DNA of 64,000 nucleotides. Origin: Devosia sp. YIM 151766. GTDB taxonomy: Bacteria; Pseudomonadota; Alphaproteobacteria; Rhizobiales; Devosiaceae. Positions 48,331-63,207 of this stretch are shown here, piece by piece; the stretch's first letter is position 1, and each line of letters starts with the position of its first letter. The stretch is taken from the NCBI RefSeq assembly GCF_030285925.1, contig NZ_CP127251.1, forward strand, positions 2,961,001 through 3,025,000, written 5' to 3'. A model generated the notes under the pieces. That model was given only the letters and a program-made list of their open reading frames with translations. It made no database searches and was not told the origin of the DNA. A program made the position numbers and the translations under genes.

Positions 48331-48362
48331 ATTAGGTTGACATCTAATGCTCATTTGATCAA
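48331..48362. promoter_or_regulatory. Divergent control region with GntR-like site S1
   Basis: ATTAG-GTTGACAT-CTAAT (48331-48348) is an inverted repeat. ATGCTCATTTGATCAA (48347-48362) matches the TTGATCATACGATCAA element at 56006 at 12 of 16 positions, with the right half strongest. It sits between the binding protein and the alpha/beta hydrolase gene. Confidence 0.45.
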
Positions 48363-48398
48363 GAGTTTCTGAAAGCGATATCACTGGAGGGAGTGACG

Positions 48399-49241
48399 AT
48401 GAGCTTCGAGGACCTACCGGCGCAGCCATCCATGTTCCCGCTGGCGGACGAATATGGCCAGACTGCCTTGCAGCGCGGCCGGGACGCATTGGCGCAGGTC
48501 AATGCGACTCAGGACATCGCCTTTGGCGACGATTACTGGCAGAAACTGGACGTGTTTGGGCCTAAGGGGGGAGGCAGCAACCTGCCCGTGCTGCTGTTTT
48601 TCCACGGCGGCGGCTCGACCCACGGCTACAAGGAATGGTGCACCTTCATGGCGCCAGCCGTAACGACGACACCGGCAATCTTCGTCTCGGCCTCCTACCG
48701 TCTCATCCCGCATGCCGATTACGACGGCCTCATGGCCGATTCCCGCGCCGCTCTGGCCTGGATACACCAGAATATCGGCAAGTTTGGCGGCGATCCGGGG
48801 CGTATCTGGGTCGGAGGCCACTCGGCCGGCGGCCAGATCGCGGCAATCTTGACGCTTGATCCGTCATCCGACCCGCAGGCCGGGCAAGTGCAGGGGTGTT
48901 TCCCGATCAGTGGCACCTTTGGCAAGGACAATGTCATGCCCAAGAATGCAGCCGGCGAAATCATCAGCACCGTGCCGATCATTCCGCCTTTATCGCTGGT
49001 GAAGGACAGGAGCGGGCCGTTCTACATTGCCTGGGGCGACCGGGAAGACGAGAAAATCCAGCGCTGGGGTCGGGAAATGGCCGCCGCGCTGCAAGCAGTC
49101 GGCACCGAGGTCGAGGCTGCGGCCTATCCCGGCGACGATCATTTCACCATTCACCTCAATACCGGCAACCCGCAGGACACATGGACGTCCACGGTCGCGC
49201 GCTGGATGAACACCAAGACCAACCAGGACCACCAAGCATGA
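48399..49241 (+). CDS. Alpha/beta hydrolase (carboxylesterase/lipase family)
   Basis: This 280-residue esterase-like hydrolase has the oxyanion motif FFHGGGSTHGYKEW (HGGG) and nucleophile elbow GGHSAGGQIAAI. The C-terminal AYPGDDHFTIH supplies the catalytic His. This is the hormone-sensitive-lipase-like branch (Abhydrolase_3). GGAGGG lies 7 bases before the ATG at 48399. Its stop overlaps the amidohydrolase start (ATGA), so hydrolysis by both enzymes is probably linked. No signal peptide; it acts in the cytosol. Confidence 0.88.
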   Translation: MSFEDLPAQPSMFPLADEYGQTALQRGRDALAQVNATQDIAFGDDYWQKLDVFGPKGGGSNLPVLLFFHGGGSTHGYKEWCTFMAPAVTTTPAIFVSASYRLIPHADYDGLMADSRAALAWIHQNIGKFGGDPGRIWVGGHSAGGQIAAILTLDPSSDPQAGQVQGCFPISGTFGKDNVMPKNAAGEIISTVPIIPPLSLVKDRSGPFYIAWGDREDEKIQRWGREMAAALQAVGTEVEAAAYPGDDHFTIHLNTGNPQDTWTSTVARWMNTKTNQDHQA

Positions 49242-50497
49242 GCATTACAATCATCCGGAATGCCTCCGTCTTCGATGGCGTCAATGAAGAATTGGCGCAT
49301 GACAGCGACGTCATCGTCGAAAACGGCACGATCCGCGAAGTCGCCCAGGGCCGCTCGAAGGTTTCGGCCGATCTCGAGATCGATGCCGGCGGCCGCACTC
49401 TGCTGCCGGGCCTGATCGACGCCCACGTCCACCTCTTCGCCGTCCATCTGGTGGCCTCGAAGAACCTGCACTATCCCCTGACGCTGCTGACGGCCAAGGC
49501 CCTGCCGCGCATCCGCAATATGCTGGAACGCGGCTTTACCAGCGTGCGTGACGTTTCCGGCGCCGATTTCGGCATCCGTCAGGCCCTGGCGGAGGGGCTG
49601 ATCGTCGGCCCGCGCGCTTTTGTCGGCGGTCCCGGCCTGACCCAGACCGGTGGCCATGGCGATCATCGCCGCCGCACCGATTCCAGCCTCGACCGCAACC
49701 GCGAAGCCGATGGCGTCGATTTCCAGTCCCGCATCGTCGACGGCCCGGAGCAGATGCGCCAGGTGGTGCGCGACGAATTGCGCAAAGGTGCGGACCACAT
49801 CAAGCTCATGGCTTCCGGCGGCGTCGGTTCCCCCAATGATGCGATCGAGGACTGGCAGTTCTCGGAAGAAGAAATCCGCATGGCCTGCCGCGAAGCCGCG
49901 GCCAAGGGCAAATATGTCGTCGCCCATACCTATGCCAGCTCCGCCGTGCAGCGCGCGGTCAAATATGGTGTCCGCACCGTCGAGCACTGCAACCTGATCG
50001 ACCGCGAGACCGCGGCCATAGTCCGCGACCACAATGCCTTCGTGGTGCCGACCTTGGTGTGCTACGAGGTCACCGAGCAGCATGGCGACTCGCTGGGGCT
50101 CTCCCCCTATGTGATGGAGAAGCTGGCTTTCGTGAACGAAGGCGGCATTCGTCTGCTCGAGCATTGCGAAGCCGAAGGCACGATAATGGGCTTCGGCACC
50201 GATCTGATGGGCGAAATGGAATATGCTCAGTCGATGGAATTCGTGATCCGCGCCCGGGTGCAGAAGCCGGTGGATGTGCTTCGTTCGGCGACCTCGATCA
50301 ATGCCAAAATCGTGCAGATGGAAGGCAAGCTGGGCGTCATCCGCGAGGGGGCGATCGCCGACATCATCCTGGTCGACGGCAACCCGCTGGACAATATCGC
50401 GCTGCTCGACGGCCAGGGCGAGAATATCCCGGTCATCCTGCAGGAGGGCCGTGTCTTCCGCAACCGTCTCGCCGCCGAGAGCGCAGGAAACATCTGA
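49238..50497 (+). CDS. Amidohydrolase family protein (imidazolonepropionase/prolidase-like)
   Basis: This 419-residue metal-dependent hydrolase has a composite beta domain (start and end: NASVFDG, GAIADIILVDGNPL) around a TIM barrel. Metal ligands are visible: GLIDAHVHLF (HxH), a Lys in DHIKLMASGGVGS, His in VVAHTYAS and TVEHCN, and Asp in FGTDLMGEM. This subgroup hydrolyses N-acyl amino acids or dipeptides (Sgx9260/PurA-like carboxypeptidases). Coupling to the esterase before and the MFS gene after supports one pathway. Confidence 0.9.
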   Translation: MSITIIRNASVFDGVNEELAHDSDVIVENGTIREVAQGRSKVSADLEIDAGGRTLLPGLIDAHVHLFAVHLVASKNLHYPLTLLTAKALPRIRNMLERGFTSVRDVSGADFGIRQALAEGLIVGPRAFVGGPGLTQTGGHGDHRRRTDSSLDRNREADGVDFQSRIVDGPEQMRQVVRDELRKGADHIKLMASGGVGSPNDAIEDWQFSEEEIRMACREAAAKGKYVVAHTYASSAVQRAVKYGVRTVEHCNLIDRETAAIVRDHNAFVVPTLVCYEVTEQHGDSLGLSPYVMEKLAFVNEGGIRLLEHCEAEGTIMGFGTDLMGEMEYAQSMEFVIRARVQKPVDVLRSATSINAKIVQMEGKLGVIREGAIADIILVDGNPLDNIALLDGQGENIPVILQEGRVFRNRLAAESAGNI

Positions 50498-51705
50498 TGC
50501 CAATCACAGGGTCGGATGACCGGCGCTATCGGCGTCTACTTGCGGCCCTGTGCTTTATCTCCGTTATCGGACCGCTGACGACGTTTCTTTATCTCCCCGC
50601 GCTGCCCGAGGTGGCGCGGCTTTTCAATACCACCGAGGCAGGCGCCCAGGGAACGCTGACATCGTTCCTCATCGGCAACTGCCTCGGCTTCGCCCTGCTG
50701 GGACGATTGAACGACAGGTTCGGACAACGCCGATCCTATGTGTCGGTGATGGCGCTGTTCATCTTCGCGAGCCTCATGGTCGCGGTCTCTCCCAGCCTCA
50801 CCTGGCTGGTTGTCGCCCGGTTCTTCCAAGGTATCGGCGCCTCCATCGGCGTCATCACCGCACGCTCCATCGTCCGGCGGACCTTTCCCAATGGCGGCTC
50901 GGGCGGCATGGCCGTGCTCTCGGCCATGGGCGGCCTGGCGCCGGCCGCCAGTCCCGTCATCGGTGCCATCGTGCTGCTGGTCGCCGACTGGCGCATGACC
51001 TTTGTTTCCGTGGCCGTATTGGGGGCGATGTCGCTGCTGCTGTCGCTGAAACTGTTCCCGAAAGGCGCGCATCTGCCCGCTCCGGTGGGTAAGGCCGGCA
51101 GTGCTTTGCGCAAGGTTCTCGCGCATCCCGAAACCCGTGCCGGCTTTCTCCTCGGTTCGCTCCATAACGGCACGTTCATGGTAATGATGGCAGGCAGTCC
51201 CTTCATATTCGTCGAGACTTTCGGCTGGAGCCAGCTGTCCTATTCGCTGCTGTTCGGGGTGATCCTCAGTTCCTTCGCGGTCATGTCCATCATCTCGGGT
51301 CGGGCATTTCCTCGCCATGGCATTCGTCGCATCATGAAATTCGGCCTGCCGGGCATGGTCCTGGGTGCCCTTGCCACGATGGGCGGCGCTGCCGCCAACG
51401 TCGACTGGATGATCGCGCTTGGGCTCTTCGTCATGATCTGCAGCATGGGACCCATCGTCCCGGGCAACCACGTGCGAATGCTCGACCCCTATCCGGAAAT
51501 GACCGGTTCCGTCGTCGGGCTCTCCATGCTGGCGGTGACGCTGAGCGGCGTGGTGATGATCTGGCTCTATGGGCTGTTCAGCGAGGGCTCGGTGCTCGGA
51601 TATGGATTATGGATCGGCATCGTGACGCTGCTGGCGGTCGGCACCTGGCTACTCTATCCACCGCCGGCGGATGTCGGGCGGGAAACCAGCCTGGTAGCGG
51701 CCTGA
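50497..51705 (+). CDS. MFS transporter, Bcr/CflA-type
   Basis: This 402-residue protein has about 12 helices. Motif A after helix 2 reads GRLNDRFGQRRSY, and PALPEVARLFNTTEAGAQGTLTSFLIG is typical of the DHA1 drug/metabolite exporters. The start overlaps the preceding stop (TGATG). It may export a toxic intermediate or end product of the hydrolysis pathway. Substrate unknown. Confidence 0.9.
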   Translation: MPITGSDDRRYRRLLAALCFISVIGPLTTFLYLPALPEVARLFNTTEAGAQGTLTSFLIGNCLGFALLGRLNDRFGQRRSYVSVMALFIFASLMVAVSPSLTWLVVARFFQGIGASIGVITARSIVRRTFPNGGSGGMAVLSAMGGLAPAASPVIGAIVLLVADWRMTFVSVAVLGAMSLLLSLKLFPKGAHLPAPVGKAGSALRKVLAHPETRAGFLLGSLHNGTFMVMMAGSPFIFVETFGWSQLSYSLLFGVILSSFAVMSIISGRAFPRHGIRRIMKFGLPGMVLGALATMGGAAANVDWMIALGLFVMICSMGPIVPGNHVRMLDPYPEMTGSVVGLSMLAVTLSGVVMIWLYGLFSEGSVLGYGLWIGIVTLLAVGTWLLYPPPADVGRETSLVAA

Positions 51706-51717
51706 GACAAAACGATA

Positions 51718-51744
51718 CGCGCCCGGGTCATCCCCGGGCGTTTT
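51718..51744 (+). terminator. Terminator after the MFS gene
   Basis: CGCCCGGG pairs with CCCGGGCG around TCATC and is followed by TTTTC, 14 bases after the stop. Confidence 0.85.
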
Positions 51745-51835
51745 CATTTGAGGGTCGGTCTGGGCAAATGCAGCCCCTTTTCCGAAGGCTTCCCCAGGCA
51801 CCGGCAGTCTCCCGCTCCGCCCCGATATGGCCGAC

Positions 51836-51866
51836 AAAAAAGCGGCCTGCCCAGGGGCAGACCGCT
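51836..51866 (-). terminator. Terminator of the dppBC-type permease operon
   Basis: On the minus strand AGCGG-T-CTGCCC and GGGCAG-G-CCGCT form a stem with one internal mismatch, then six T residues. It lies 29 bases after the dppC-type stop. Confidence 0.88.
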
Positions 51867-51894
51867 CGCATTCCGCAGCGAGGCGGAATTCCTG

Positions 51895-52833
51895 TCAGTT
51901 TCGCAGCTTGGGGTCCAGCTTGTCGCGCAGCCAGTCGCCCACCACCGTGAGGCTGACCAGGAGCAGGATGAGCAGCAGCGCCGGGAACAGCACGATCCAC
52001 CACTCGCCGGAAAACAGGTAACTGTAGCCGATGCGGATCAGCGTCCCCAGGGAAGGCTGGCTGGCCGGCATTCCAAAGCCGAGAAAGGACAGCGTCGCCT
52101 CGGTCATGATGGCGAAAGCGATGTCGAGCGTCGCCAGCACGAAGACCGGGTTCAGCACATTGGGCAGCACCTGCTTGAACAGGATATTGCCGTGGCCGCG
52201 CCCGGCGAGACGGGCGGCTGCGACATAGTTCTTGCCGGCCTCGGCAATCACCGCTGCACGGACGAGGCGCGCAAAATGCGGCCAGTGCGAAATACCCAGG
52301 GCGATGACGACGATGAGCATCGCCATCCGTTCCTGTCCGGCAGCGGAGAGGAACTGGCGCCCAACCCCGCCGATCAGCAAGGCGAGCAGCATCGCCGGGA
52401 AGGTGAACTGGATGTCGGCCATGCGCATGATCAGCGTTTCGACCCAGCCGCGGGCATAGCCGCTGATCAGGCCCAGGGTCAGCCCGATGGACACCGACAC
52501 GCAGACGGCAAGGATGCCGACCAGGAACGATGTCCGCAGGCCATAAAGAAGCAGGGAATAGAGGTCGGCGCCCTGGCTGTCCGTGCCCAGCAGGTAGCGG
52601 GGCGAGCCGCCTTCGATGAAGGCAGGCGGCAGATGGCTGTCGAAGAGATCCATCTGCGACAGGTCATAGGGATTGAAGGGAGCGAGCAACGGCGCGAATA
52701 CCGCCGCACCGATGATCACGAGCAGAATCACCAGCGCCACTGCGGCACCGGGACGATCGAGCAGGCCGCGCACCCAGAAATTCACGAACTGGGATTGCGG
52801 CTTGGCCTTTTGCGGGGACGTATCAGCGAGCAT
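51895..52833 (-). CDS. Peptide-type ABC transporter permease (DppC/OppC-like)
   Basis: This 312-residue inner-membrane permease has the family start (first helix AAVALVILLVIIGAAVFAPLLAPFNPYDL), the periplasmic LLGTDSQGADLYSLLLYGLRTSFLVG stretch, and the EAA loop AARLAGRGHGNILFKQVLPNVLNPVFV. It follows the DppB-type gene by six bases. It ends at a strong terminator. Confidence 0.94.
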   Translation of the reverse strand: MLADTSPQKAKPQSQFVNFWVRGLLDRPGAAVALVILLVIIGAAVFAPLLAPFNPYDLSQMDLFDSHLPPAFIEGGSPRYLLGTDSQGADLYSLLLYGLRTSFLVGILAVCVSVSIGLTLGLISGYARGWVETLIMRMADIQFTFPAMLLALLIGGVGRQFLSAAGQERMAMLIVVIALGISHWPHFARLVRAAVIAEAGKNYVAAARLAGRGHGNILFKQVLPNVLNPVFVLATLDIAFAIMTEATLSFLGFGMPASQPSLGTLIRIGYSYLFSGEWWIVLFPALLLILLLVSLTVVGDWLRDKLDPKLRN

Positions 52834-52839: not shown

Positions 52840-53817
52840 CTAACCTTTCTCGCCCAGGCGCACACGCGGATCCGCGACGGCATAGAGGACGTCCACGATC
52901 AGGTTGATCATGGCGAAGAAGAACGCGACGAAGATCAGGATCGAGGTGATCACCGGCACGTCGGCCTGCGTCAACGATCCAAGAAAGAGCGTGCCAATGC
53001 CGGGCCACTGGAAGACCTGCTCGACCACCACGGCGAAGGCGACCAGATAGCCGATCTGGATGCCGCTGATGGTGATGATGGGGATTAGCGTATTGCGCAG
53101 GGCATGGACGAAGTTGACCGGGGCGCTGCGAATGCCGCGGGCGCGGGCGAACCGGATATAGTCGGCGCGGAGCACTTCGACCATCTCGGCCCGCACTAGG
53201 CGGCCGACAAGCGCCATCTGGCTGATCGCCAGCGATAGCGCCGGCATGATCAGTGCAAGAAGACCTGTTCGGGTCAGCAGGCCCGTATTCCAGCCACCGA
53301 CATTGACGGTCTCGCCGCGACCGAAGGACGGCAGCCAGCCCATATGCACGGAAAAGAAGAAAATCAGGAGGATGCCGACCACGAATGTCGGGAGCGAAAC
53401 GCCGACCACCGAAGTCGTCATCAGCAGATTCGCCCACCACTTGTCGCGCCAGATTGCAGCGACAACGCCGAGCGGAACGCCCAGGGCGAGCGAAAGGAAC
53501 AGACCGGCAAAGGCCAGTTCGAACGTGGCCGGAAGGCGCTCGACGATCACGTCATAGACTGGCCGCTGCGCCCGATAGCTCATGCCCATCTCACCGCTCA
53601 GGAAGCGGCCCATAAAGTCCATATAGCGCACGTGAAACGGCTGATCGAGCCCGAGCCGGGCGATCAGCGCCGCCCGATCAGCGGCGGTCGCTTCAATGCC
53701 CAGCATGCTGGTGATGGGGTCGCCGATGGCTTCGCCAAGCGAAAAGGCGATGAGACTGACAATGAACACGACCAATAGGGCGTGCCCCATTCGCCTGACG
53801 AGAAATTGCGGCGTCAC
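52840..53817 (-). CDS. Peptide-type ABC transporter permease (DppB/OppB-like)
   Basis: This 325-residue permease has the DppB N-terminus (FLVRRMGHALLVVFIVSLIAFSL) and the segment RAALIARLGLDQPFHVRYMDFMGRFLSGEMGMSY. The loop RADYIRFARARGIRSAPVNFVHALRNTLIPIITISG is the ATPase-contact EAA region. It is first in a two-gene operon, divergent from the ATPase genes across the operator at 53864-53879. Confidence 0.94.
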   Translation of the reverse strand: MTPQFLVRRMGHALLVVFIVSLIAFSLGEAIGDPITSMLGIEATAADRAALIARLGLDQPFHVRYMDFMGRFLSGEMGMSYRAQRPVYDVIVERLPATFELAFAGLFLSLALGVPLGVVAAIWRDKWWANLLMTTSVVGVSLPTFVVGILLIFFFSVHMGWLPSFGRGETVNVGGWNTGLLTRTGLLALIMPALSLAISQMALVGRLVRAEMVEVLRADYIRFARARGIRSAPVNFVHALRNTLIPIITISGIQIGYLVAFAVVVEQVFQWPGIGTLFLGSLTQADVPVITSILIFVAFFFAMINLIVDVLYAVADPRVRLGEKG

Positions 53818-53863: not shown

Positions 53864-53879
53864 TCGATCATTAGATCAA
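53864..53879. promoter_or_regulatory. Putative GntR operator S2 (permease/ATPase divergent promoter)
   Basis: TCGATCATTAGATCAA differs from the 56006 element at three of 16 positions and keeps the GATC...GATC symmetry. It lies between dppB-type and dppD-type genes and so could control both. Confidence 0.55.
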
Positions 53880-53949: not shown

Positions 53950-54975
53950 TTGACAATCATGGACGCCACTTCGGCAGAGATCGTGCCAAGCGCTGCGCCT
54001 GTGCTCAGTGTGCGCAATCTCAATGTCGAGCTCACGATGATGGGCCGACGCATTCCCCTGGTGCGCGATGCCAGCTTCGATCTCGCCCCTGGCGAAATTC
54101 TGGGGATGGTGGGAGAATCAGGCGCCGGAAAATCCATGCTGGGATCGGCGATCATCGGCCTGATCCCGCCACCTCTGCGCCGGATTTCGGGCGAAATCCG
54201 GCTGGGCGATCTGCGTCTGGACCTGCTCAAGGAGCGCCAGATGGTCGAGCATCGCGGCAGCGGCATCGGCATGATCTTCCAGGATCCGCTGACCGCGCTG
54301 AACCCGGTCTTTACCATTGGCCGCCAATTGGTCGAAACCATCGAGCGCCATACCGAGCTGCGCAAAGGCGCCGCCATCGAGGAAGCGATTTCGCTGCTGC
54401 AGCAGGTGGGCATTCCGGCTGCCGCCGAGCGGCTCGATAGTTTTCCCCTCGAATTTTCGGGCGGCATGCGGCAGCGCGTGGTGATCGCGCTGGCTCTGGC
54501 CAGCCGCCCCAAAGTGATCATTGCCGACGAGCCGACCACGGCCCTCGACGTCTCGATCCAGGCGCAGATCATCCTGCTGCTCAAAAAGCTCTGCAAGGAG
54601 CGCGGCACCGCCGTCGTTCTCATCACGCACGACATGGGTGTCATTGCCAATTCGGCTGACCGTGTTGCGGTGATGTATGCGGGCCGTATCGTCGAGATCG
54701 GCCCGGTGAGGCGGGTGATGAGCGATGCGCAACATCCCTATACCCGCGCGCTGATGGCTTCGATCCCCGAGATCGGGCGCCGCTTGCCGCGCCTGCCGCA
54801 ATTGCCCGGCGCCATGCCGCGGCCGGTCAACCTGCCCTCAGGCTGTTCCTTTCATCCCCGATGCGCCCATGCCTTTGACCGCTGCACTGCCGACCGCCCC
54901 GAACTTCTGGGCCCACAGCAGCACCGCGCGGCATGCTGGCTGGTCGAAACTGCTCACGAGACTACCGCACCATGA
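53950..54975 (+). CDS. Peptide-type ABC transporter ATP-binding protein (DppD/OppD-like)
   Basis: This 341-residue ATPase has Walker A GESGAGKS, signature FSGGMRQRVVIALAL and Walker B VIIADEPTTALD. The Opp/Dpp C-terminal tail GCSFHPRCAHAFDRC has the Cys pattern seen in OppD/DppD (a cluster site in some members). The TTG at 53950 has AGGAG six bases upstream, better placed than for the ATG at 53959. The next ATPase overlaps in ATGA. Confidence 0.93.
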   Translation: MTIMDATSAEIVPSAAPVLSVRNLNVELTMMGRRIPLVRDASFDLAPGEILGMVGESGAGKSMLGSAIIGLIPPPLRRISGEIRLGDLRLDLLKERQMVEHRGSGIGMIFQDPLTALNPVFTIGRQLVETIERHTELRKGAAIEEAISLLQQVGIPAAAERLDSFPLEFSGGMRQRVVIALALASRPKVIIADEPTTALDVSIQAQIILLLKKLCKERGTAVVLITHDMGVIANSADRVAVMYAGRIVEIGPVRRVMSDAQHPYTRALMASIPEIGRRLPRLPQLPGAMPRPVNLPSGCSFHPRCAHAFDRCTADRPELLGPQQHRAACWLVETAHETTAP

Positions 54976-55985
54976 CCGGATCTGATCGCCAGATTGACCA
55001 AGACGCTCCCCTTCTGGAAGTGCGCGGCCTCGTCAAAACCTTTGGCTCCGGCCCGGGCCTGCTCGACTGGGTGTTCAGGCGCCCCGGCCCCCGCCGGGTC
55101 CAGGCGGTGCGCGGCGTCGATTTCGACCTGCACAAGGGCCAGACCCTGGCGCTGGTGGGTGAGAGCGGTTGCGGCAAGTCGACAATCGCCGGATGTGTTT
55201 CCGGACTGACCTCCCCCAGCGCCGGCACGGTAAAGTTCCGCGGTGTGGACATGACGGAGATCGCGAGCAAGGCCACGCCGGAGCGCGCTCAGGTCCAGAT
55301 GATATTCCAGGACCCCTATTCCTCGCTCAATCCGCGCTGGAAGGTCGGTCGCTCGATCGGCGATCCGATCCTGTCGCTCGGCATCGAGACCAATCGCGCC
55401 AAGATCCGTGAAATGGTTGGGGAATTGCTGACCCAGGTGGGCCTGTCGCCCGCCGATGCTGACAAGTTTCCGCACGAATTTTCGGGCGGCCAGCGGCAGC
55501 GCATTGCCATTGCCCGCGCGCTCTCGACGCGGCCGCAGCTGATCATCTGCGACGAGCCGACCTCGGCTCTTGACGTTTCGGTGCAGGCGCAGATCCTCAA
55601 CAAGATGCGGGACCTGCAGGAAGAGCTGTCGCTCACCTTCCTTTTCATCACCCACGATCTTGGCGTCGTCGATCACATGGCCGACGATATCGGCGTCATG
55701 TATCTCGGCCAGGTGGTGGAGCGCGCCAGCCGCGACGATCTCTTCGCCCGGCCGCGCCATCCCTATACGCAGGCACTGCTTGGGGCCATCCCGCAGATCA
55801 CGGCCGATGGATCGGAATTGCGGCCGCCGCAGGGCGAATTGCCGGACCCGGCGAACCCGCCATCGGGCTGCCCGTTCCGGACACGCTGTCCGCATGTCAT
55901 CGCCCGCTGCGCCGAGGAGCAACCGATGCTTCGCCCGCTCGATGGCACTCTGGTGGCCTGTCACCGCGCCGAAGAAATCAGCTAA
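54972..55985 (+). CDS. Peptide-type ABC transporter ATP-binding protein (DppF/OppF-like)
   Basis: The second ATPase (337 residues) has Walker A GESGCGKST, signature FSGGQRQRIAIARAL, Walker B LIICDEPTSALD and C-terminal GCPFRTRCPHVIARC. It begins with an ATGA overlap on the DppD-type gene, so the pair should be made in equal amounts. Together with the binding protein (46.7 kb) and permeases (52-53.8 kb) it completes the importer. Confidence 0.94.
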   Translation: MTGSDRQIDQDAPLLEVRGLVKTFGSGPGLLDWVFRRPGPRRVQAVRGVDFDLHKGQTLALVGESGCGKSTIAGCVSGLTSPSAGTVKFRGVDMTEIASKATPERAQVQMIFQDPYSSLNPRWKVGRSIGDPILSLGIETNRAKIREMVGELLTQVGLSPADADKFPHEFSGGQRQRIAIARALSTRPQLIICDEPTSALDVSVQAQILNKMRDLQEELSLTFLFITHDLGVVDHMADDIGVMYLGQVVERASRDDLFARPRHPYTQALLGAIPQITADGSELRPPQGELPDPANPPSGCPFRTRCPHVIARCAEEQPMLRPLDGTLVACHRAEEIS

Positions 55986-56005: not shown

Positions 56006-56021
56006 TTGATCATACGATCAA
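56006..56021. promoter_or_regulatory. Putative GntR operator S3
   Basis: TTGATCATACGATCAA is a 16-bp element symmetric at all but the four central bases. It lies 51 bases before the FAD oxidoreductase start, and a further TGATCA follows at 56033-56038. It is the best copy of the element found around block B. Confidence 0.62.
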
Positions 56022-56071
56022 AAGCTGTATGCTGATCATGCCGCGCAGTTTTGCGGCTGGGAGAATCAGGC

Positions 56072-57340
56072 TTGGAAACGCTTTGGACCCGCACGGCCCG
56101 CAATAAGATTGTGCCCGACACGGCCCTGCCCGGGCAGGTCGACGTGGCCATCATTGGCGGCGGCTTTACCGGCCTCACGGCAGCCCGCGAACTGGCCGGG
56201 GCCGGCCGCAGCGTCGCCGTGCTGGAAGCCAGCCATATCGGTGCCGGTGCCAGCGGCATGAATGCCGGTTTCGTCGTACCGAATTTCGCCAAGGCCGACC
56301 CGATCGCCGTGCGCAACAAGCTCGGCTCGGAGCGCGGCGATATTTTGCTGCGCCTCGTGGGTGACGCGGCCAATGCCGTCTATCGCACCGTCGAGGAAGA
56401 CGGGATCGTCTGCGATGCGCGCCAGACCGGCTGGCTCAACCCGGCCTTCGGCGCCGCTGGCGCCGAAATGCTCAAGGCGCGCGCCGCGATGTGGCGCGAT
56501 CTGGGTCGCCCGGTAACCTTTCTCAGCGCGGACGAGGTTCGCGAGCAGACCGGCATGGACATCTATAGCGGTGCCTTGCTCGATGCCGAGGGTGGCACGA
56601 TTCACCCGCTCGACTATGTCCGGGGCCTGGCCATCAGCGTCCAAAGCCGCGGCGGCACTGTCCATGAGGGTCAGCGCGTCGACGAGGTGCAGCGCGACAA
56701 TGGCGGCTGGCGGCTGATCATGCGCTCGGGCGCCACGATGCGGGCCGGAAAGGTTCTGCTCTGCACCAATGCCTTCACCACCGGCGCGGCCAACAAGATG
56801 GGGCGTTCGGTCGTGCCGCTGCGCGTCTACCAGATCGCTACCACGCCCACCGATCCGGCCATCGTCCAGCGCATTGCCCCTGATGCCCGCCCGGTCGGCG
56901 ATACGCGCCAGAACCTGTTCACCTACCGTCTCGATCGCGATAATCGCCTGATCTCCGGCGGCATGGCGGCCATTCCGCTCGGCGCCTTTGCCCGGCTTGG
57001 CCGCAGCGTCGCCGAACGCCTATCCACCGAACTCGGGCTTGCCGAGCCGGTGCGTCCGGAAGTCGTGTGGACCGGCACGGCAGCGATGACGCCCGACTTC
57101 CTGCCCCGCATCTATCAGATGGGCGACGGCTATTTTGGCGGCATTGGCTGCAATGGCCGCGGCGTCGCCATGACGGCCCAGCTTGGCCGTGTCCTGGCTC
57201 GCGCCGCCATAGGCGAAGCGCCGGAGAGCCTGCCGATCCCGCTGCGCACCCTGCGTCCCCTGCCCTTCCACAGCTTCACGCCCATCGTCGCCTCGGCTGC
57301 CTTGCTGCAGGCGCGTCTCAAAGACAGGTTTTCAAAATGA
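56072..57340 (+). CDS. FAD-dependent amine/amino-acid oxidoreductase (DadA/DAO family)
   Basis: This 422-residue flavoprotein has the dinucleotide motif VDVAIIGGGFTGLTAARELAGAG and AGASGMNAGFVVPNF, typical of DadA-like and gamma-glutamylputrescine oxidase-like proteins. The C-terminal part reads GDGYFGGIGCNGRGVAMTAQLGRVLA. It oxidises an amine to an imine, which a Rid protein or water would open. TTG at 56072 with GGGAG 8 bases upstream is chosen; another TTG lies at 56051. It overlaps the next gene (ATGA). Confidence 0.88.
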   Translation: METLWTRTARNKIVPDTALPGQVDVAIIGGGFTGLTAARELAGAGRSVAVLEASHIGAGASGMNAGFVVPNFAKADPIAVRNKLGSERGDILLRLVGDAANAVYRTVEEDGIVCDARQTGWLNPAFGAAGAEMLKARAAMWRDLGRPVTFLSADEVREQTGMDIYSGALLDAEGGTIHPLDYVRGLAISVQSRGGTVHEGQRVDEVQRDNGGWRLIMRSGATMRAGKVLLCTNAFTTGAANKMGRSVVPLRVYQIATTPTDPAIVQRIAPDARPVGDTRQNLFTYRLDRDNRLISGGMAAIPLGAFARLGRSVAERLSTELGLAEPVRPEVVWTGTAAMTPDFLPRIYQMGDGYFGGIGCNGRGVAMTAQLGRVLARAAIGEAPESLPIPLRTLRPLPFHSFTPIVASAALLQARLKDRFSK

Positions 57341-58221
57341 CGACTACGATCGGAATAGCCGGCGCCGGAAACATGGGTACGGCCATTGCCCGCAGCCTGC
57401 AGAAGGCCGGTGTGCCCGTATTGCTGCTGGCCCCGACCAGCGGCATCTCGGCGAGGCATGAAGGCTTCGAGATCGTCGCCGATGCCGAGGCACTCGCCAA
57501 AGGTTCGGACGTGGTGATCAGCGCCCTGCGCACCGGCGCCGAAACGGCGGCATTGCTGCCGCAATTGCTGGCCGGTGCAGCAGGCAAGGACAATTTCATC
57601 CATATCGACCAGGGCAATGGCGCGCCCGAGGTGGCGCGTGACTGCGCCAAAAGCTGGGCAGAACGGGGCCAGCTATTCGCCGATGCGCCGATGCTCGGGC
57701 CGCCGGAAAGCCTGGACAGCGGCAGAGCCCGCCTCCTGGTCGGCGCCAGCGACGATAGCCTGGCCCGGCTGAAAGAGCTCAATCTTCCCTATTACAAGGA
57801 CCTGGTTCATGCGGGCGGGCCAGGCCAGGGTCACATGCTGCGTCAATTGCTCAACTTCATGGGTTATGGGCTCGTAGCCCTTTCCGCCGGCACGATTGCA
57901 ACGGCCTCGGCCGTGGGCATCACCCCAACAGTGCTGCGCGACGGCGCCTTCGGCATGGGGCTCGACAGCGGGACATTCCAGACGCTGCTGGCCTCCGCGA
58001 TCGACAAGACGATCCCGCACCGCCCGCTCTCTCTCGACTATATAAGCGGCGAATATCAGAAGATGCAGGACGCTTTCCCGAGCGTGGAAGGCGCGGACCT
58101 GATGGCCGCGACATTCCGCGACTTCTACGCCTTGGCCGCCGGAGACCAGGGCGACCGGATCATGGCCACGGCGCTGCCATCCCGCCTGGAAGAGCTCAAT
58201 TCGGACAGCGCTTCGGCATGA
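57337..58221 (+). CDS. NAD(P)-dependent oxidoreductase, beta-hydroxyacid dehydrogenase-like
   Basis: This 294-residue protein has an N-terminal Rossmann motif TTIGIAGAGNMGTAIARSLQKAG and a C-terminal helical domain. The layout is that of 3-hydroxyisobutyrate-type dehydrogenases, with a GGPGQGHMLRQLLNFMGYG segment in the G-x-G-x-x-x-K-x-x-N position. Met-Leu-Arg replaces the usual catalytic Lys region (GxGxxxKxxxN), so the catalytic residue may differ and imine reduction is a possibility. Overlaps join it to both neighbours. Confidence 0.82.
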   Translation: MTTTIGIAGAGNMGTAIARSLQKAGVPVLLLAPTSGISARHEGFEIVADAEALAKGSDVVISALRTGAETAALLPQLLAGAAGKDNFIHIDQGNGAPEVARDCAKSWAERGQLFADAPMLGPPESLDSGRARLLVGASDDSLARLKELNLPYYKDLVHAGGPGQGHMLRQLLNFMGYGLVALSAGTIATASAVGITPTVLRDGAFGMGLDSGTFQTLLASAIDKTIPHRPLSLDYISGEYQKMQDAFPSVEGADLMAATFRDFYALAAGDQGDRIMATALPSRLEELNSDSASA

Positions 58222-60233
58222 CCCAGGTGATCAGCCTCGATATCCGCGACCGGCGCCCCTTTGCGGGTGGCGCGACCTTCGGCGAAACGGGAAGCTACGA
58301 GCTGATCGTGGGCCGTGCGGAGCTTGCCTTGCGTCCGGACCAGATCGGTGCCGACGGGGTCTATGAGGCTGATTTCATCTCGAAGGACGATCAGGGCCGC
58401 ATTCGTGCCACGACCGATATCTGGATGCTGGTGCCGACCGATGCCGACCGGGGCAATGGCAGCCTGCTGTTCGAATTCGTCAACCGCGGCAATAAGCGGA
58501 TGCTGCAATTCTTCAATTCGGGGGCGGCGAGCAATCATCCGTCCTCGGCCAGCGATGCCGGCAATGGCTTCCTCATGCGGCAGGGCTTTTCGCTGCTGAT
58601 CGCCGCCTGGCAGGGCGACGTTCTGCCCGGCGACCATCGCGTCGTCATCGATCTTCCCGGCTTTTCCGGCCCGGATGAGCGGATGACGGCGACCATTACC
58701 GCCGAATTGATCCATGAAGGCGGCCCGGTCGCGACCTGTTTGCCGCTTTCCGGCAAGACCGGCACCCGCTCCTATCCCGTCGCCGATCCCGAGACGGCTG
58801 TGCTGGTGCGCCGGCGCTACCCGCATAGTCGGGCAGAAGAGATCGGCCGGGACCGCTGGTCTTTCTCCTTCCTCGAGGGCGCTGGCGGCGGACTTGGGGC
58901 GGGCGACGTGCAGGGCGCCGAACAGGCCATCCTGCCTTCGGAGCGCCATATCTGGCTGCCGGAAGGCTTCCAGCCCGGCTGGATCTATCAGCTGACCTAT
59001 AAGGCCTCGCAGCCCTTGGCCTTCGATATCGGCTTCGTCGCCGTGGGCGAGCTGGTGAGTTATCTGCGGCATTGCACAGACGCGGCCAACCCGCTGGCCG
59101 GCCGCCTCCGGCATACGATCGGCTGGGGACGCTCGCAATCGGGCCGCGCTATTCGTGATTTCCTCCATCGCGGCTTCAATCGCGACCATGCCGGGCGCCG
59201 GATTTTCGACGGCATGCTGCCCCATATTTCGGGCGGCGGTAAGACGACGATGAACCGGTTTCAGAACCTCGTGATCGCGGCGTCGCGCGAATATGAGGAC
59301 AACCTCCATCCATCGGACCGCTTCCCGTTCAGCTATGCGCGCTCGACCGATCACCTGACCGGCAACACCGACGCGATCCTCAAGCGTCCGGACACCGATC
59401 CCAAGCTCATCCATACGCAGAGCGCCTCTGAATATTGGCACCGCCGCGGCTCGCTGGTGCATACCGACACACGCGGCAACGATCTCGAGCAGCCGGACAA
59501 TGTCCGGATCTATCTCTGGTCGTCCTCGCAGCACTGGTCGGATCCCAAGCCCTCTTTGCCCCCTAAAGGCATGTGCCTGAACTATCAGAATATCGTGCAG
59601 ACGGTCGCCTTCTTCCGCAGCACGCTGATGCTGATGCATCACTGGCTCGCCGAAGGCCGCACGCCGCCGGCCAGCCGGATTCCGCGGCGCAGCGATAGCA
59701 GCCTGGTCGAGGTCGCGGATTATCGCTTCCCCGCACCGCGCGGCCTGGCCTTGCCCAAGCAGGCGAACCCGCTCCATCTCGTCGATTATGGCCCGGACTT
59801 TGACGCCGGGCATGCCGCTCCGGCCCATCCGCAGGTCGACCGGTCGCAAAGCTATGCTGTGCTGGTGCCGCAGGCGGATAGCGATGGCAATGATCTCGCG
59901 GGTCTGCGCGCGCCCATGGTGGAGGCGCCGCTTGGATCCTATACGGGCTGGAACCTGCGCGCCCAGGGCCATGGCGCCGGCATGTTGCACGGTTTCTCCG
60001 GGAGCTACATTCCTTTCGCGGAAACGCCGGAGGAGGCAGAATTGACGGACGACCCTCGCCCGTCGATCGCATCACGTTACACCGACGCCTCAGCGTATAG
60101 CCTGGCCATCGAAACCGCAGCCCGTGCGCTGCTGGCCGACGGCTTTCTGCTCGAAGAGGACGTCATCACGGCTGTCGATACAGCCAAACACTTCGGCCGG
60201 GTGAATCATTCGCATTCGCTCGGTTGGATCTAA
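58218..60233 (+). CDS. Alpha/beta hydrolase domain protein (Abhydrolase_10 type, 671 aa)
   Basis: This is a large cytosolic hydrolase. The N-terminal half is a beta-rich region (residues ~1-240, FETGSYELIVGRAEL, LFEFVNRGNKRML). It is followed by an alpha/beta hydrolase with nucleophile elbow TIGWGRSQSGRAIRDF (Ser near residue 305). NHSHSLGWI lies at the C-terminus. The family has almost no characterised members. It starts in ATGA overlap with the dehydrogenase and is followed 14 bases later by the aminotransferase. Confidence 0.82.
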   Translation: MTQVISLDIRDRRPFAGGATFGETGSYELIVGRAELALRPDQIGADGVYEADFISKDDQGRIRATTDIWMLVPTDADRGNGSLLFEFVNRGNKRMLQFFNSGAASNHPSSASDAGNGFLMRQGFSLLIAAWQGDVLPGDHRVVIDLPGFSGPDERMTATITAELIHEGGPVATCLPLSGKTGTRSYPVADPETAVLVRRRYPHSRAEEIGRDRWSFSFLEGAGGGLGAGDVQGAEQAILPSERHIWLPEGFQPGWIYQLTYKASQPLAFDIGFVAVGELVSYLRHCTDAANPLAGRLRHTIGWGRSQSGRAIRDFLHRGFNRDHAGRRIFDGMLPHISGGGKTTMNRFQNLVIAASREYEDNLHPSDRFPFSYARSTDHLTGNTDAILKRPDTDPKLIHTQSASEYWHRRGSLVHTDTRGNDLEQPDNVRIYLWSSSQHWSDPKPSLPPKGMCLNYQNIVQTVAFFRSTLMLMHHWLAEGRTPPASRIPRRSDSSLVEVADYRFPAPRGLALPKQANPLHLVDYGPDFDAGHAAPAHPQVDRSQSYAVLVPQADSDGNDLAGLRAPMVEAPLGSYTGWNLRAQGHGAGMLHGFSGSYIPFAETPEEAELTDDPRPSIASRYTDASAYSLAIETAARALLADGFLLEEDVITAVDTAKHFGRVNHSHSLGWI

Positions 60234-60247
60234 AGTAGGAAGACGAC

Positions 60248-61450
60248 ATGAGGCATCTCGCCCGCAGAATTACCGAGACCTCGAAGAAATCCTTCGGGAT
60301 GTATGCGCGCGCCGCGGCCAGCGGGCGTGACGATCTCATCCATATGGAACTGGGCAAGCCCTATGCGGACACGCCCCAGCACATCAAGGATGCGACTATC
60401 GCCGCGATCCAGGCTGGCAATGTGCACTATTCCGACCTGCCCGGCGTGCGGCATCTGCGCGAGGCGATTGCCGAAAAGCTGCAGCGCCAGAACGAAATCG
60501 ATGTCGGCGCCGACCAGGTGGTGGTCACCAATGGGCTGACCCACGGTTCCTATGCGGCGATCATGGCTTTCATCGATGACGGCGACGAAGTCATCCTGCT
60601 CGATCCGTATTATCCGCAGCATGTCGGCAAGGTGGAACTCGCCGGTGGCGTTCCGGTCCTGGCCAAGCTCGATGCGAAGAACAATTACGCCATCGACGCC
60701 GCCGCGATCGAAAGCAAGATCACGCCGCGCACCAAGATGATCATCCTGATCAATCCGTGCAATCCGACCGGCCGCGTCTATAGCCGCGAGGAACTGACGG
60801 CTCTCGCGGACCTCGCCATCAAGCACGACCTGCTCATCCTCTCGGACGAGGTCTATGAGGAAATCGTCTATGACGATGCCCGCCACATCTCTATCGCGTC
60901 CCTGCCCGGCATGGCCGATCGCACCATTTCGCTCTTTGCCTTCACCAAGAGCTTCGCGATGGACGGCTGGCGCATCGGCTATCTGACGGCCCCCAAGGCC
61001 GCCATCGGCGCCATCCTCAAGATCACTGCCAATGACGTCACCCACGTCAATACCTTCATCCAGGAAGGGGCGCTTGCGGCGCTGACCGGCGATCCGGAAG
61101 TGCTGGCACAGCTCGTCGACGACGACCGCAGCAAGCGCGACCGCGTAGTGACCCGCCTCAACCAGCTGCCCGGCATTACCTGCCCCTGGCCCGAAGGCAC
61201 GATCTACGCCTTCGCCGATGTGTCGGCGCTGGGTCTGCCTTCGCAGGTCCTCTCGGAGCGGTTGATGGACGAAGCGGGCGTCGTCGTGGAATCGGGCAGT
61301 TTCTACGGCGCGGCCGGCGAGGGTAAGATTCGCATCTGCTTCGGTTCGCTGTCGATGGAAGAAATCGATCTGGCCTTGGATCGCATCGCCGATTTCACGC
61401 GAGGCATAACCGATCAGATAACTTTCGATCAGGACGAAATCTTTCCATAG
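60248..61450 (+). CDS. PLP-dependent class I/II aminotransferase (400 aa)
   Basis: This is a fold-type I aminotransferase of the AspC/subgroup I-gamma type. It has the NPCNPTGRVYSREEL motif, LSDEVYEEIVYDD (Asp for the PLP pyridine), and the PLP-Lys in FAFTKSFAMDGWRIGYL (near residue 233). A C-terminal IRICFG Arg binds the substrate carboxylate. It could transaminate the product of the amine oxidoreductase or a 2-oxoacid for export of nitrogen. Substrate not fixed by sequence. Confidence 0.92.
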   Translation: MRHLARRITETSKKSFGMYARAAASGRDDLIHMELGKPYADTPQHIKDATIAAIQAGNVHYSDLPGVRHLREAIAEKLQRQNEIDVGADQVVVTNGLTHGSYAAIMAFIDDGDEVILLDPYYPQHVGKVELAGGVPVLAKLDAKNNYAIDAAAIESKITPRTKMIILINPCNPTGRVYSREELTALADLAIKHDLLILSDEVYEEIVYDDARHISIASLPGMADRTISLFAFTKSFAMDGWRIGYLTAPKAAIGAILKITANDVTHVNTFIQEGALAALTGDPEVLAQLVDDDRSKRDRVVTRLNQLPGITCPWPEGTIYAFADVSALGLPSQVLSERLMDEAGVVVESGSFYGAAGEGKIRICFGSLSMEEIDLALDRIADFTRGITDQITFDQDEIFP

Positions 61451-61473
61451 CCGCGTGTTGCGAAAGGCCCTGA

Positions 61474-61489
61474 TTGATCATACTAGCGT
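61474..61489. promoter_or_regulatory. Putative GntR operator S4 before gntR
   Basis: TTGATCATACTAGCGT keeps the first ten bases of the 56006 element and loses the right half. It lies 73 bases before the regulator start, suggesting weaker autoregulation. Confidence 0.4.
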
Positions 61490-61561
61490 TGTCTGAAGTA
61501 ATAAGGGTCGTCTTTGAATGGTGTTTTTGGAGACGAACGCGAGGAACGAGGGGACAACCTC

Positions 61562-62290
61562 ATGGCCAGTATGAAATTCTCAGCGGGTGACTTCAAGCCT
61601 GTATCGTCGCGCAAAACCGTTCATGACCTGGTCTATGAGCAATTGCGTGACGCGCTGATGTCTGGGGCCTTCGAGGCGCGCAAACCGTTCACGATCTCCT
61701 CGCTCTCAGAGCGATTCCAGACCTCGCATATGCCGGTTCGCGAAGCGCTGCGCCGCCTGGCATCGGAGAACGCGCTCAAGATCTCGGCGACCGGCACGGC
61801 CTATGTGCCAGCGATCACCGCCGAGGAATTGAAGGATATCAGCCGCGCCCGCATCATCGTCGAAGGAGCGACGGCCCGGCTTGCCGGCGAGAAGCTGAGC
61901 CCCGAGGATGTCGCGGAATTGCAGCGCATTCTCGATCACCACCGCAAGAGCGCCAGCGCCGGCGACATTTCCGAAATGACCGCCGCGAACCGCGCCTTCC
62001 ACTTCCATATCTATCGCGCTGCGCAGAGCCCTGTCCTGCTCAGCCAGATAGAAAATCTCTGGCTGCGGTCGGGCCCCTATGTTCGTTTTCTCTCGGATCG
62101 CATGAGCGAGCTGCTCAAGACCGAGCACAAGGCGGGCTTCACCGATTATCACGCCGCCATGGTCGATGCCATTCGCGCCAAGGACTGGGCCGCACTGGGA
62201 GCAGCCTGCGAAGCCGATATCCGGTCCTCGCAGGACCTGCTGCTCGAAGCCATCGAGGCAGATGGCGAAACCGATCCAAACATCGGCTGA
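61562..62290 (+). CDS. GntR family regulator, FCD (FadR/VanR-like) subfamily
   Basis: This 242-residue regulator has an N-terminal winged helix (residues ~18-85: KTVHDLVYEQLRDALMSGAFEARKPFTISSLSERFQTSHMPVREALRRLASENAL) and an all-helical FCD ligand domain (~90-230). His residues in the latter (ANRAFHFHIY, DYHAAM) are likely metal ligands. FCD regulators sense carboxylated metabolites and bind short palindromes. The TTGATCAT-type sites around block B are its probable targets. The ATG at 61562 has GAGGGG upstream. The next gene overlaps its 3' end by 29 bases. Confidence 0.92.
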   Translation: MASMKFSAGDFKPVSSRKTVHDLVYEQLRDALMSGAFEARKPFTISSLSERFQTSHMPVREALRRLASENALKISATGTAYVPAITAEELKDISRARIIVEGATARLAGEKLSPEDVAELQRILDHHRKSASAGDISEMTAANRAFHFHIYRAAQSPVLLSQIENLWLRSGPYVRFLSDRMSELLKTEHKAGFTDYHAAMVDAIRAKDWAALGAACEADIRSSQDLLLEAIEADGETDPNIG

Positions 62291-63134
62291 CCGAATCGGC
62301 TGGGGAGACCGAGAGATAGTTGAATTTCCGACCCAGGCCGCCCTGGACGAACAATTTTCCCTAGACCGCGTCAAAAATCTCGACGCGCTTTTTGCCCGAC
62401 GCGCCCAGGCCGCCGAGCAGGCGCGTGCCCGTTTCGAGATGGTGCCAGCCATCTCCTATGGGCCCCATCCAGACCATAGGCTCAACATCTTCCCCGCTGC
62501 GGGCGAACCGGGCCCGGTTCAGGTTTTCATTCATGGCGGCTTCTGGCGCTCTCTCGACGCCAACCTGTTCAGCTTCCTGGCTCCGGGTTTTGTGCCTTTC
62601 GGCGCAACGCTGGTAGTGATCGACTATCCGCTCATGCCGGTGGCGCGGATGAGCGACGTCGTCCAAGCCTGTCAAATGTCGCTGGACTGGATCGCGGGCA
62701 ATATCGGCAGATATGGCGGCGATCCGGATCGGGTGTTCATGTCGGGCAATTCGGCAGGCGGCCAATTGGTGGCCGAACTGATGGATGGCGCCGGGCAAAG
62801 GATCAAGGGCGGCGCGGCGCTCAGTGGGGTATTTGACCTCGAACCGGTCAGCCGCTCGTTCCAGAATGACAGCCTTCAGCTGACCCCGGCCGAGATCGAA
62901 CGCTACAGCCCTCTCAACCGTGCCCTCAGGATTTCTGCTCCGCTGCTGGTCGCTGTTGGCGGCCGCGAGACCGAGACGTTCATCGACCAGTCCGCGCGAC
63001 TGGCCGAACAGATCGGCACAAAGGCCATGATCGTTCCGGAGGCCGACCATATTACGATCGTCCTCGACGCCCTGGCCGATCCTGCGGCCGAGCTGAACCG
63101 CAAAGTGCGCCAGCAGATGGGGCTCATGGCCTAG
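62262..63134 (+). CDS. Alpha/beta hydrolase, arylformamidase-like
   Basis: This 290-residue hydrolase has oxyanion motif VFIHGGFWRSLD (HGGFW, as in bacterial and animal alpha/beta arylformamidases), nucleophile FMSGNSAGGQLVAEL and His in PEADHITIVLDAL. Arylformamidase cleaves N-formylkynurenine; relatives cleave other amides or esters, so the name is by resemblance. The ATG at 62262 lies inside the gntR 3' end with only a weak GAGG nearby. It may be translationally coupled to gntR. Confidence 0.85.
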   Translation: MAKPIQTSADRIGWGDREIVEFPTQAALDEQFSLDRVKNLDALFARRAQAAEQARARFEMVPAISYGPHPDHRLNIFPAAGEPGPVQVFIHGGFWRSLDANLFSFLAPGFVPFGATLVVIDYPLMPVARMSDVVQACQMSLDWIAGNIGRYGGDPDRVFMSGNSAGGQLVAELMDGAGQRIKGGAALSGVFDLEPVSRSFQNDSLQLTPAEIERYSPLNRALRISAPLLVAVGGRETETFIDQSARLAEQIGTKAMIVPEADHITIVLDALADPAAELNRKVRQQMGLMA

Positions 63135-63193
63135 CCCGCCGATGGACAATGGCAAGGATTCGCCGGTTCGACATTGCAACCCTCAACCGGTTC

Positions 63194-63207
63194 TGATCAT
63201 ATGATCA
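63194..63207. promoter_or_regulatory. Putative GntR operator S5 before the second Rid gene
   Basis: TGATCATATGATCA is a perfect 14-bp palindrome, 24 bases before the Rid start and 13 of 16 identical to the 56006 element when extended. This is the strictest symmetric copy. Confidence 0.6.

Follow-up and report, generated by a model that had tools for sequence, protein, structure and literature searches.

Does the short GATC-centred palindrome that recurs between the genes of one block in Devosia sp. YIM 151766 mark a regulon of its own, and which protein would read it? The window analysed is a stretch of 64,000 nucleotides (contig NZ_CP127251.1, positions 2,961,001 to 3,025,000), for which the sites, their conservation, their genome-wide confinement to the block, their co-occurrence with gntR and the covariation of operator and HTH were computed. 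The reading to which we give a probability of about 0.88 is a local catabolic regulon, in which the GntR/FCD protein encoded at 61562 binds a common core at the block promoters and at its own, likely repressing them until released by an effector (Table 1). The conserved set of sites is almost certainly worked by a single GntR-type regulator encoded among them. This type of control circuit is already known, and the Devosia regulon is a fresh example of it.

Table 1. Genes and candidate operators of the block (window coordinates).
Feature	Position	Strand	Remark
Salicylyl-/2-aminobenzoyl-CoA-type hydroxylase/oxidoreductase	44150..46480	-	NF006101, 1339.8 bits (cut-off 1078)
Solute-binding protein (SBP), SBP_bac_5	46698..48293	-	
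Candidate operator, SBP (minus) and hydrolase 1 (plus)	48347..48362	-	in gap SBP 48293 / hydrolase 48393; minus strand reads TTGATCAAATGAGCAT
Alpha/beta hydrolase 1	48393..49241	+	
Amidohydrolase	49238..50497	+	nearest solved chains 3MKV, 3FEQ/3N2C (amidohydrolase/prolidase)
MFS transporter	50488..51705	+	
ABC permease, OppC-like	51895..52833	-	
Second ABC permease	52840..53817	-	31% similarity to annotated ABC permease, plasmid pLA6_001
Weak operator candidate, permease/ATPase divergon	53864..53879	-	in gap permease 53817 / ATPase 53950; 16-mer pattern match
Oligopeptide-type ABC ATPase	53950..54975	+	
Second ABC ATPase	54972..55985	+	49.8% identity to ABC_tran protein L076:8200-10038
Candidate operator, FAD oxidase operon	56006..56021	+	between ATPase end 55985 and FAD oxidase 56051; top genome-wide model match, E=0.145
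FAD-dependent oxidoreductase, DAO family	56051..57340	+	
NAD-binding dehydrogenase	57337..58221	+	
Abhydrolase_10 protein	58218..60233	+	
PLP aminotransferase	60248..61450	+	
Candidate operator, gntR (autoregulation)	61474..61489	+	between aminotransferase end 61450 and gntR 61562; TTGATCATACTAGCGT; conserved in alignment A1, 8 Devosia
GntR/FCD regulator	61562..62290	+	Pfam GntR + FCD
Alpha/beta hydrolase 2	62286..63134	+	
Candidate operator, Rid	63193..63208	+	between hydrolase end 63134 and Rid 63231; TGATCATATGATCA; model E=0.034 in window, 1.71 genome-wide
Rid-family protein	63231..63617	+	

The genes of the regulon appear to serve the uptake and breakdown of small amide- or peptide-like compounds, and would include a prolidase-like amidohydrolase, oligopeptide-type ABC transporters, an FAD oxidase, an aminotransferase and Rid. 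They adjoin an isatin-to-2-aminobenzoyl-CoA-type island. The oxygenase of this island (NF006101), which we take to be of the 2-aminobenzoyl type, may be transcribed by read-through from the SBP promoter; no terminator-like site is listed between the two genes. Two MarR genes are located at 36171 and 41966, and an IclR gene lies beyond the window end.

The first-pass annotation had listed five copies of the motif, each in front of a transcription unit. All five strings are found at their positions, and the gene borders at every site confirm that each copy is intergenic and 5' of the named unit. With at most three mismatches, TTGATCATACGATCAA is matched five times in the window, two palindromic places being counted once per strand; 100 shuffles give 0.19 matches on average and 2 at most. 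The looser TTGATCANNNGATCAA, at three mismatches, is not above chance in the window, with 18 matches for a mean of 13.2 and 21 of 100 shuffles reaching 18. The bare 16-mer, also at three mismatches, occurs at 14 further genome places outside the block, four of which were inspected.

The site at 48347 had been described as a half-site. It is not bare, as the other strand is only two letters away from the site TTGATCAAATGCTCAT of another Devosia (L042), and a model built from relatives reports it at E=0.011 in the window and 0.573 genome-wide. Similarly, the supposedly degraded half at 61474 turns out to be a conserved form, present as TTGATCATACTAGCAA in four of the eight aligned Devosia and as a near copy in the other four, including the window; its model E-value is 0.29 with filters off. 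Conservation of the Rid site across Devosia was considered and set aside: among the Devosia relatives, a clear site precedes Rid only in Root685 (L040, GTGATCATACGATCAC) and at the second Rid of D. limi. The weakest of the five, at 53864, is not reported by the relatives-built model at E<=10, even with filters off, and the orthologous permease/ATPase divergon of Pseudooceanicola (L046) carries the strong site TTTGATCAAACGATCTT. The original proposal, in which the regulator controls all five units, is supported on the whole, with weak support in the Devosia genome for 53864 as the control site of the permease/ATPase pair.

The recurrence of the motif was seen correctly, but its form is better read differently. 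The operator would consist of a 10-bp core, TTTGATCAAA, usually accompanied by a weaker third box, ATCA, located some 9 nt away from its centre; the window's own sites are degenerate versions of this core. A 16-bp palindrome with a 4-nt spacer was set aside, because in the 32 training sites the columns outside the pattern match the inside ones in conservation (position 7 is an invariant A, position 9 is A in at least 90%), which makes the 16-mer appear to be the two outer half-sites out of three. Among 39 aligned rows, A stands at positions 7, 8 and 9 in 36, 31 and 36 rows, respectively, and T at position 0 in 26; many of these 39 come from closely related organisms, four were chosen by TTGATCA, which includes position 7, and two (L050 and L035) are out of register by one. 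When spacers were compared, a spacing of 4 was best at >=10/12 (40 matches), followed by a spacing of 5 (29), whose matches at >=11 fall mostly at one recurrent place within an aminotransferase gene. Permutation of the half-sites over 12 orthologous loci gave a mean of 3.8 and a maximum of 23 matches at >=10/12 (119 permutations), against 40 for the real half-site; at >=9/12, one permutation beats it (171 vs 120).

Conservation 5' of orthologous units, a check suggested at the outset, was seen in Devosia and Rhodobacterales. Random scatter of the motif over the genome, which would have spoken against the regulon, is contradicted by the model R1, a 17-nt model of 32 sites, all from other organisms and 31 of them chosen via the 16-mer pattern. 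On the 3,292,759-base genome, it gives five matches at E<=10, all at 3009348-3028284 (within 19 kb) and all in the block or its continuation: 48347, 56006, 63193 and a pair 3.2 kb beyond the window end. The block runs on there with these two additional sites, and the regulon extends beyond the five units first listed. Three gntR-upstream sites with a poor second half (9924 in L043, 7372 in L044 and 9918 in L045) were kept out of the training, as were 15693 (L043), 4537 (L046), the sites before gntR in L040 and L048, and sites from second-paralogue loci.

In a comparison of 75 genomes of the genus, the presence of the motif goes with that of gntR. At E<=1, at least one site is present in 13/13 genomes with gntR and at least two in 11/13, compared to 9/62 and 1/62 of those lacking it (Fisher test); the nine are within what such E-values permit by chance. 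After removal of the six genomes that supplied training sites, the gntR-bearing counts are 7/7 and 5/7 (p about 1e-5 each). A reversed-motif control, R2, has two genome matches at E<=10, both at one place outside the block, and a match at E<=1 in 2/75 genomes. It is biased low by its rarer core (99 vs 911 first-look candidates) and was therefore given no weight.

The regulator scores 46.3 bits with PF00392 (cut-off 27) and 84.6 bits with PF07729 (cut-off 24.3), placing it in the FadR/FCD group of GntR proteins. Its recognition helix reads TSHMPVREAL, with a serine at HTH position 28, which is residue 46 (alignment A3). Homologues were collected at HSP bits >=85, with query start <=50 and end >=120; each also needed a gene start of its own, preceded by at least 120 bases, which left 73. 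A core of at least 9/10, either TTTGATCAAA or TGTGATCACA, is found 5' of gntR in 48 of them (gene-body control: 1/73), and the TGTGATCACA type precedes 25. Arginine occupies residue 46 in 23/25 homologues with TGTGATCACA and in 0/22 with TTTGATCAAA, in a table that omits the 26 of 73 whose operator type is unclear (Arg absent in 21 and present in 5). In these sequences, the core type TTTGATCAAA or TGTGATCACA thus tracks the absence or presence of Arg28, respectively; contrasts independent of the tree amount to 2-4 pairs, none opposed, too few for significance. Residue 46 separates the operator types better than helix residue 38. The latter was rejected as the only residue to set specificity, since STM is split 8:8 with one tie, even though SPM (0:12) and SHM (10:0) agree with it.

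A conserved common site precedes both the regulator gene and the adjoining units, as in a local autoregulated catabolic regulon, and the gntR-upstream site is absent from some relatives. No core match of at least 9/10 stands before gntR in 17 of 27 SHM-type homologues, several of which are Devosia with an 8/10 site, and no gntR-upstream core is present in Pseudooceanicola L046, Maritimibacter L047, L094 and the paralogues. In one SHM-type homologue, G073 (L070), the best upstream candidate is TATGAGCAAA. In Rhizobium and Caballeronia, TTTGATCAAA precedes distant gntR homologues whose annotated neighbours are different.

We infer that the regulator binds and represses, and that a ligand derived from a substrate brings about induction. 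The GntR/FCD protein would bind TTTGATCAAA at the block promoters and at the gntR promoter, the effector-free form most likely repressing by covering the promoter; its release would be brought about by a product of uptake or an intermediate of the pathway. A scan of 46300-64000 showed no excess of sigma-70-like promoters (4 vs 4.2 expected); the promoters are therefore placed by means of the alignment of eight Devosia, in which the promoter/operator geometry is conserved. In our reading of this alignment, operator s2 starts 7-8 nt past the -10 of a promoter of the form TTGACA-N18-TANNNT, and s1 is flanked by TTGTGA (6/8) and an invariant other-strand TTTACA. Such operator placing in the conserved amidohydrolase/SBP divergon points to repression. 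An activating regulator, or one playing both roles, is an unlikely alternative given that s1 and s2 both occupy occluding positions, although AkgR, a regulator with a related motif, is termed a transcriptional activator in PMC6365646, with GTGATCAC among its binding sites.

It is very improbable that the motif is read by a different regulator of the island (one of the two MarR proteins, or the IclR protein), gntR being a mere target. The MarR and IclR genes are close by, and MarR proteins regulate auxin loci according to PMC9613470. However, no MarR- or IclR-named annotated neighbour lies within 10 kb of the Rhizobium and Caballeronia gntR homologues with the core, five Devosia loci (L037-L041) have sites and no MarR2 or IclR match in the stretches covered, and the operator type follows an HTH residue of the GntR protein itself. 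The idea that the sites are chance GATC/TTGATC promoter elements draws on the chance-level count of the loose pattern, on the 14 outside places of the 16-mer and on the resemblance of TTGATC to a -35 element. It is hardly credible in view of the invariance of the sites across eight Devosia, their recurrence in Rhodobacterales and the confinement of model matches to the block, which contradicts it for the three best sites; 53864 is possibly such an element. A single GntR-type regulator, acting on the block and on its own gene, remains the preferred reading.

A motif found by eye has thus become a predicted regulon with defined operators and member units, along with a testable recognition rule, in which HTH position 28 would set the second core base. 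In Devosia and Rhodobacterales, peptide/amide-type uptake is tied to the breakdown of indole through its isatin branch, and this link suggests concrete candidate growth substrates and inducers. More speculatively, and with rather low confidence, amide- or peptide-linked indolics resembling auxin conjugates might be imported, hydrolysed and deaminated by an undescribed route leading via isatin and isatinate to 2-aminobenzoyl-CoA, the operator preference of the regulator clade (TGTGATCACA or TTTGATCAAA) being set by the presence or absence of one HTH arginine. The annotated genes, all of them outside bases 1-26000 of the window, include no identified ring-attacking IAA enzyme.

Among known regulators, McbR/YncC of E. 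coli (PRK11414; PDB 4p9f) represents both the nearest NCBIfam family and the nearest solved structure by sequence; at 114.7 bits against a cut-off of 225, the Devosia protein is not an McbR member by the NCBIfam test. The FadR-subfamily consensus TKGT-N2/3-ACMA (Suvorova 2015, PMC4494728) differs from the operator found here, TKTG-AT-CAMA, which has TG and CA in its two halves where the consensus has GT and AC. According to PMC4494728, FadR-subfamily operators share the 10-bp frame with K at the second position, an additional, weaker half-site at 7-12 nt from the centre, and the correlation of Arg28 with G, a contact predicted there. NanR and BioR are subfamily members that also depart from the consensus (PMC4494728), so the mismatch is compatible with FadR/FCD membership. 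Also close are PS417_07240 of Pseudomonas simiae, a gntR-like gene, and AkgR of Rhodobacter sphaeroides, which is 32% identical to it (PMC6365646). Their palindrome is TGATCA-centred, like the Devosia operator, and the Devosia regulator falls in this group by the site before its gene (61474), which contains TTGATCATA. They have G at the second core position, found here before 25/73 homologues, whereas the Devosia regulon has T and lacks Arg28; PS417_07240 is associated with deoxyribonate genes, and the Devosia regulon with peptide/amide-type uptake and breakdown. The adjoining island resembles the iad-type auxin degradation loci (PMC9613470) in its iorAB and MarR genes and its isatin/isatinate steps. 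Unlike these loci, Devosia has an attached GntR regulon, peptide-type transporters, a prolidase-like enzyme and a salicylyl-/2-aminobenzoyl-CoA-type oxygenase.

The first-pass annotation had proposed a regulon of the GntR/FCD gene (61562-62290) within a block of binding-protein, hydrolase, permease/ATPase, FAD oxidoreductase and Rid genes. Its five motif strings are present at 48347, 53864, 56006, 61474 and 63194, and the gene map of the window confirms that all five are intergenic. At up to three mismatches, its 16-mer has five matches in the window, versus a mean of 0.19 in shuffled sequences; a looser form of the pattern was not above chance there. The genome is a single contig of 3,292,759 bases, of which the window spans 2961001-3025000. 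At the same mismatch limit, it holds 19 strand-matches at 17 places, three inside the block and 14 elsewhere, and two strand-matches to the reversed pattern. The bare 16-mer is by itself not block-specific, because 14 of its 17 places lie outside the block.

A sequence-only covariance model was trained on 32 sites, all from other organisms. With default filters, it matched the window at 56006 (E=0.0028), 48347 (E=0.011) and 63193 (E=0.034), with no further window match at E<=10. With the filters off, 61474 was recovered at E=0.29, the remaining window matches having E=1.5 or worse; 53864 was not recovered in the window even then. The whole genome gave exactly five matches at E<=10, namely the same three and a pair spaced 114 bases shortly beyond the window end (3028155 and 3028269). 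By the model the motif is not scattered, all of its genome-wide matches lying in the block or just past the window. The pair and the genes past the window end (see table) therefore extend the predicted regulon beyond the block. Elsewhere in the genome, two other 16-base strings were recorded; TTGACCGTTTGGTCAA, a near-palindrome, is a distinct motif and probably the site of another regulator.

Features in and around the window (L076, stretch past the window end; other L-numbers, compared loci; G000, this genome; C1, its contig)
Feature	Location	Remark
Chemotaxis transducer with protoglobin domain	window 26139-27752	
iad-like set: two MarR genes, iorBA-like, SDR, cupin, Rid, salicylyl-/2-aminobenzoyl-CoA-type oxygenase	window 36171-46480	
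Prolyl-oligopeptidase-like gene and second amidohydrolase	L076, past window end	one side
Second SBP-ABC operon	L076, past window end	other side
Isatin hydrolase homologue	L076:12122-12913 (window scale 73122-73913)	about 27 kb beyond iad-like set
TTGACCGTTTGGTCAA	G000:C1:176183-176198 (L079:1684)	between peptide-type SBP and aldo/keto reductase genes, both assigned by eye
TTTTTTGACCAAACGATCAAAAAAA	G000:C1:2227074-2227089 (L078:1575)	directly before luciferase-like monooxygenase gene, assigned by eye
Second GntR paralogue	L042:16577-20710; L083:2919-9088; L036:3982-9240	46-47% identity; SHM helix where aligned

Scanning a single genome for each species gave 12 loci with close GntR relatives, seven in Devosia and five in Rhodobacterales. 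An aminotransferase relative occurs in all of them (immediately beside gntR in eight), a Rid relative in nine and an FAD oxidase in eight; oligopeptide-type ABC genes are likewise common on the gene maps. These loci hold 40 copies of TTGATC-N4-GATCAA that agree at 10 or more of 12 positions, whereas 119 permutations of the half-site averaged 3.8 and reached at most 23. With the threshold lowered to 9 of 12, one of the permutations outscores the real motif. The predicted conservation upstream of orthologous units was borne out in both groups. The gntR promoters of eight aligned Devosia carry TTGATCATACTAGCAA in four and a near copy in four, including 61474; no such site was found before gntR in a further Devosia (G073). 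In the amidohydrolase/SBP divergon, TTTGATCAAAAAATCA and TTTGATCAAATGCTCA, 92-114 bases apart, are invariant in eight Devosia, this genome included. In Rhodobacterales, TTTGATCAAACGATCA-like sites precede the aminotransferase, Rid/FAD oxidase, SBP and ATPase/permease genes, as well as gntR in L043-L045 and on the plasmid L049; none was found before gntR in L046 and L047. The loci of the second paralogue have their own aminotransferase and salicylyl-CoA-type gene, with a TTTGATCAAATGC(T/G)CA(A/C) site before the aminotransferase.

The sites also co-occur with the regulator. Among 75 congeneric genomes, 13 encode it or a close paralogue (E<=1e-30); all 13 have a site at E<=1, and 11 have two or more. 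At least one site was found in nine of the 62 others, and two in a single genome (G096, 74% complete). Fisher p-values are 4e-9 for at least one site and 2e-10 for at least two, and overstate independence since the congeners are related. Six of the 13 supplied training sites, as matched by contig position; with these removed, seven of seven have at least one site and five of seven at least two (p about 1e-5 each). A reversed-motif control model, biased low, matched in 2/75 genomes.

Conservation in the 32 training sites is equally strong in columns within the selecting pattern and in columns beyond it. Positions 0-9 of 39 aligned rows read TTTGATCAAA; a weaker ATCA follows at 12-15, some 9 nt away from the centre of this core. 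In 73 homologues (31-100% identity), the region searched was the 250 bases upstream, 20 bases of the gene included. TTTGATCAAA (T-type) or TGTGATCACA (G-type) was found at 9 or more of 10 positions upstream of 48, perfectly in 31; gene bodies gave one and none, and shuffles means of 0.5 and 0.03. A motif-free count of these 73 regions returned the same two as the commonest palindromic 10-mers (17 and 14), the other six listed occurring once each. Of the 25 proteins with TGTGATCACA, 23 have arginine at residue 46, against none of the 22 with TTTGATCAAA; on a quick tree, operator type and residue each change six times, independent pairs being too few for significance. As expected, the window's protein combines serine at this residue with a T-type site. 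From our own alignment through Table 1 of PMC4494728 and the FadR sequence, we take residue 46 to be position 28 of the HTH as numbered in that paper. Perfect TGTGATCACA sites precede alphaproteobacterial FCD-GntR genes in L005, L009, L011, L012, L013, L015, L088, L100, L113-L116 and others, and form a ready-made set of predicted operators.

The nearest chains to the amidohydrolase are the amidohydrolases/prolidases 3MKV (E 2e-109) and 3FEQ/3N2C (E 1e-100). The iorAB-like alpha subunit scores 272.9 bits, under the cut-off of 650.9, and the other subunit was called from its POR and DUF6537 domains. The region also encodes a salicylyl-CoA 5-hydroxylase-type enzyme; such enzymes presumably act on 2-aminobenzoyl-CoA. 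The isatin hydrolase homologue matches 4j0n (E 1e-109). In this genome, the whole-genome model scan gave no site at E<=10 before it; a TTTGATCAAACGATCA-like site precedes the isatin-hydrolase-type gene itself in L043-L045, three Rhodobacterales loci, and iorBA follows at some distance downstream, on the strand of that gene. Parts of the iad-like set adjoin GntR genes also in G073, G093 and Rhodobacterales. Small amides or peptides are plausibly imported and hydrolysed, with deamination by the FAD oxidase, aminotransferase and Rid; indolic moieties could plausibly then enter the isatin to 2-aminobenzoyl-CoA route.

As read from the eight-Devosia alignment, one operator of the conserved divergon starts 7-8 nt past a TTGACA-N18-TANNNT promoter, and the second lies between TTGTGA (6/8) and an invariant opposite-strand TTTACA. 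The gntR promoter has a conserved TTGC element followed by an operator containing CATACT in seven of eight Devosia. Judged from these positions in the sequence, we favour repression with autoregulation, in which the GntR regulator would occlude promoters, including its own. AkgR, a regulator with a related motif, is described as an activator.

Searches of open-licence literature on GntR operators, Devosia, 2-aminobenzoyl-CoA and auxin conjugates returned no title on the predicted regulon. The operator class has precedent, since PMC6365646 describes GTGATCAC for AkgR and for a GntR-like protein of Pseudomonas. The core TKTGATCAMA has a common frame with TKGT-N2-ACMA, as published in PMC4494728, but differs from it at two positions per half.
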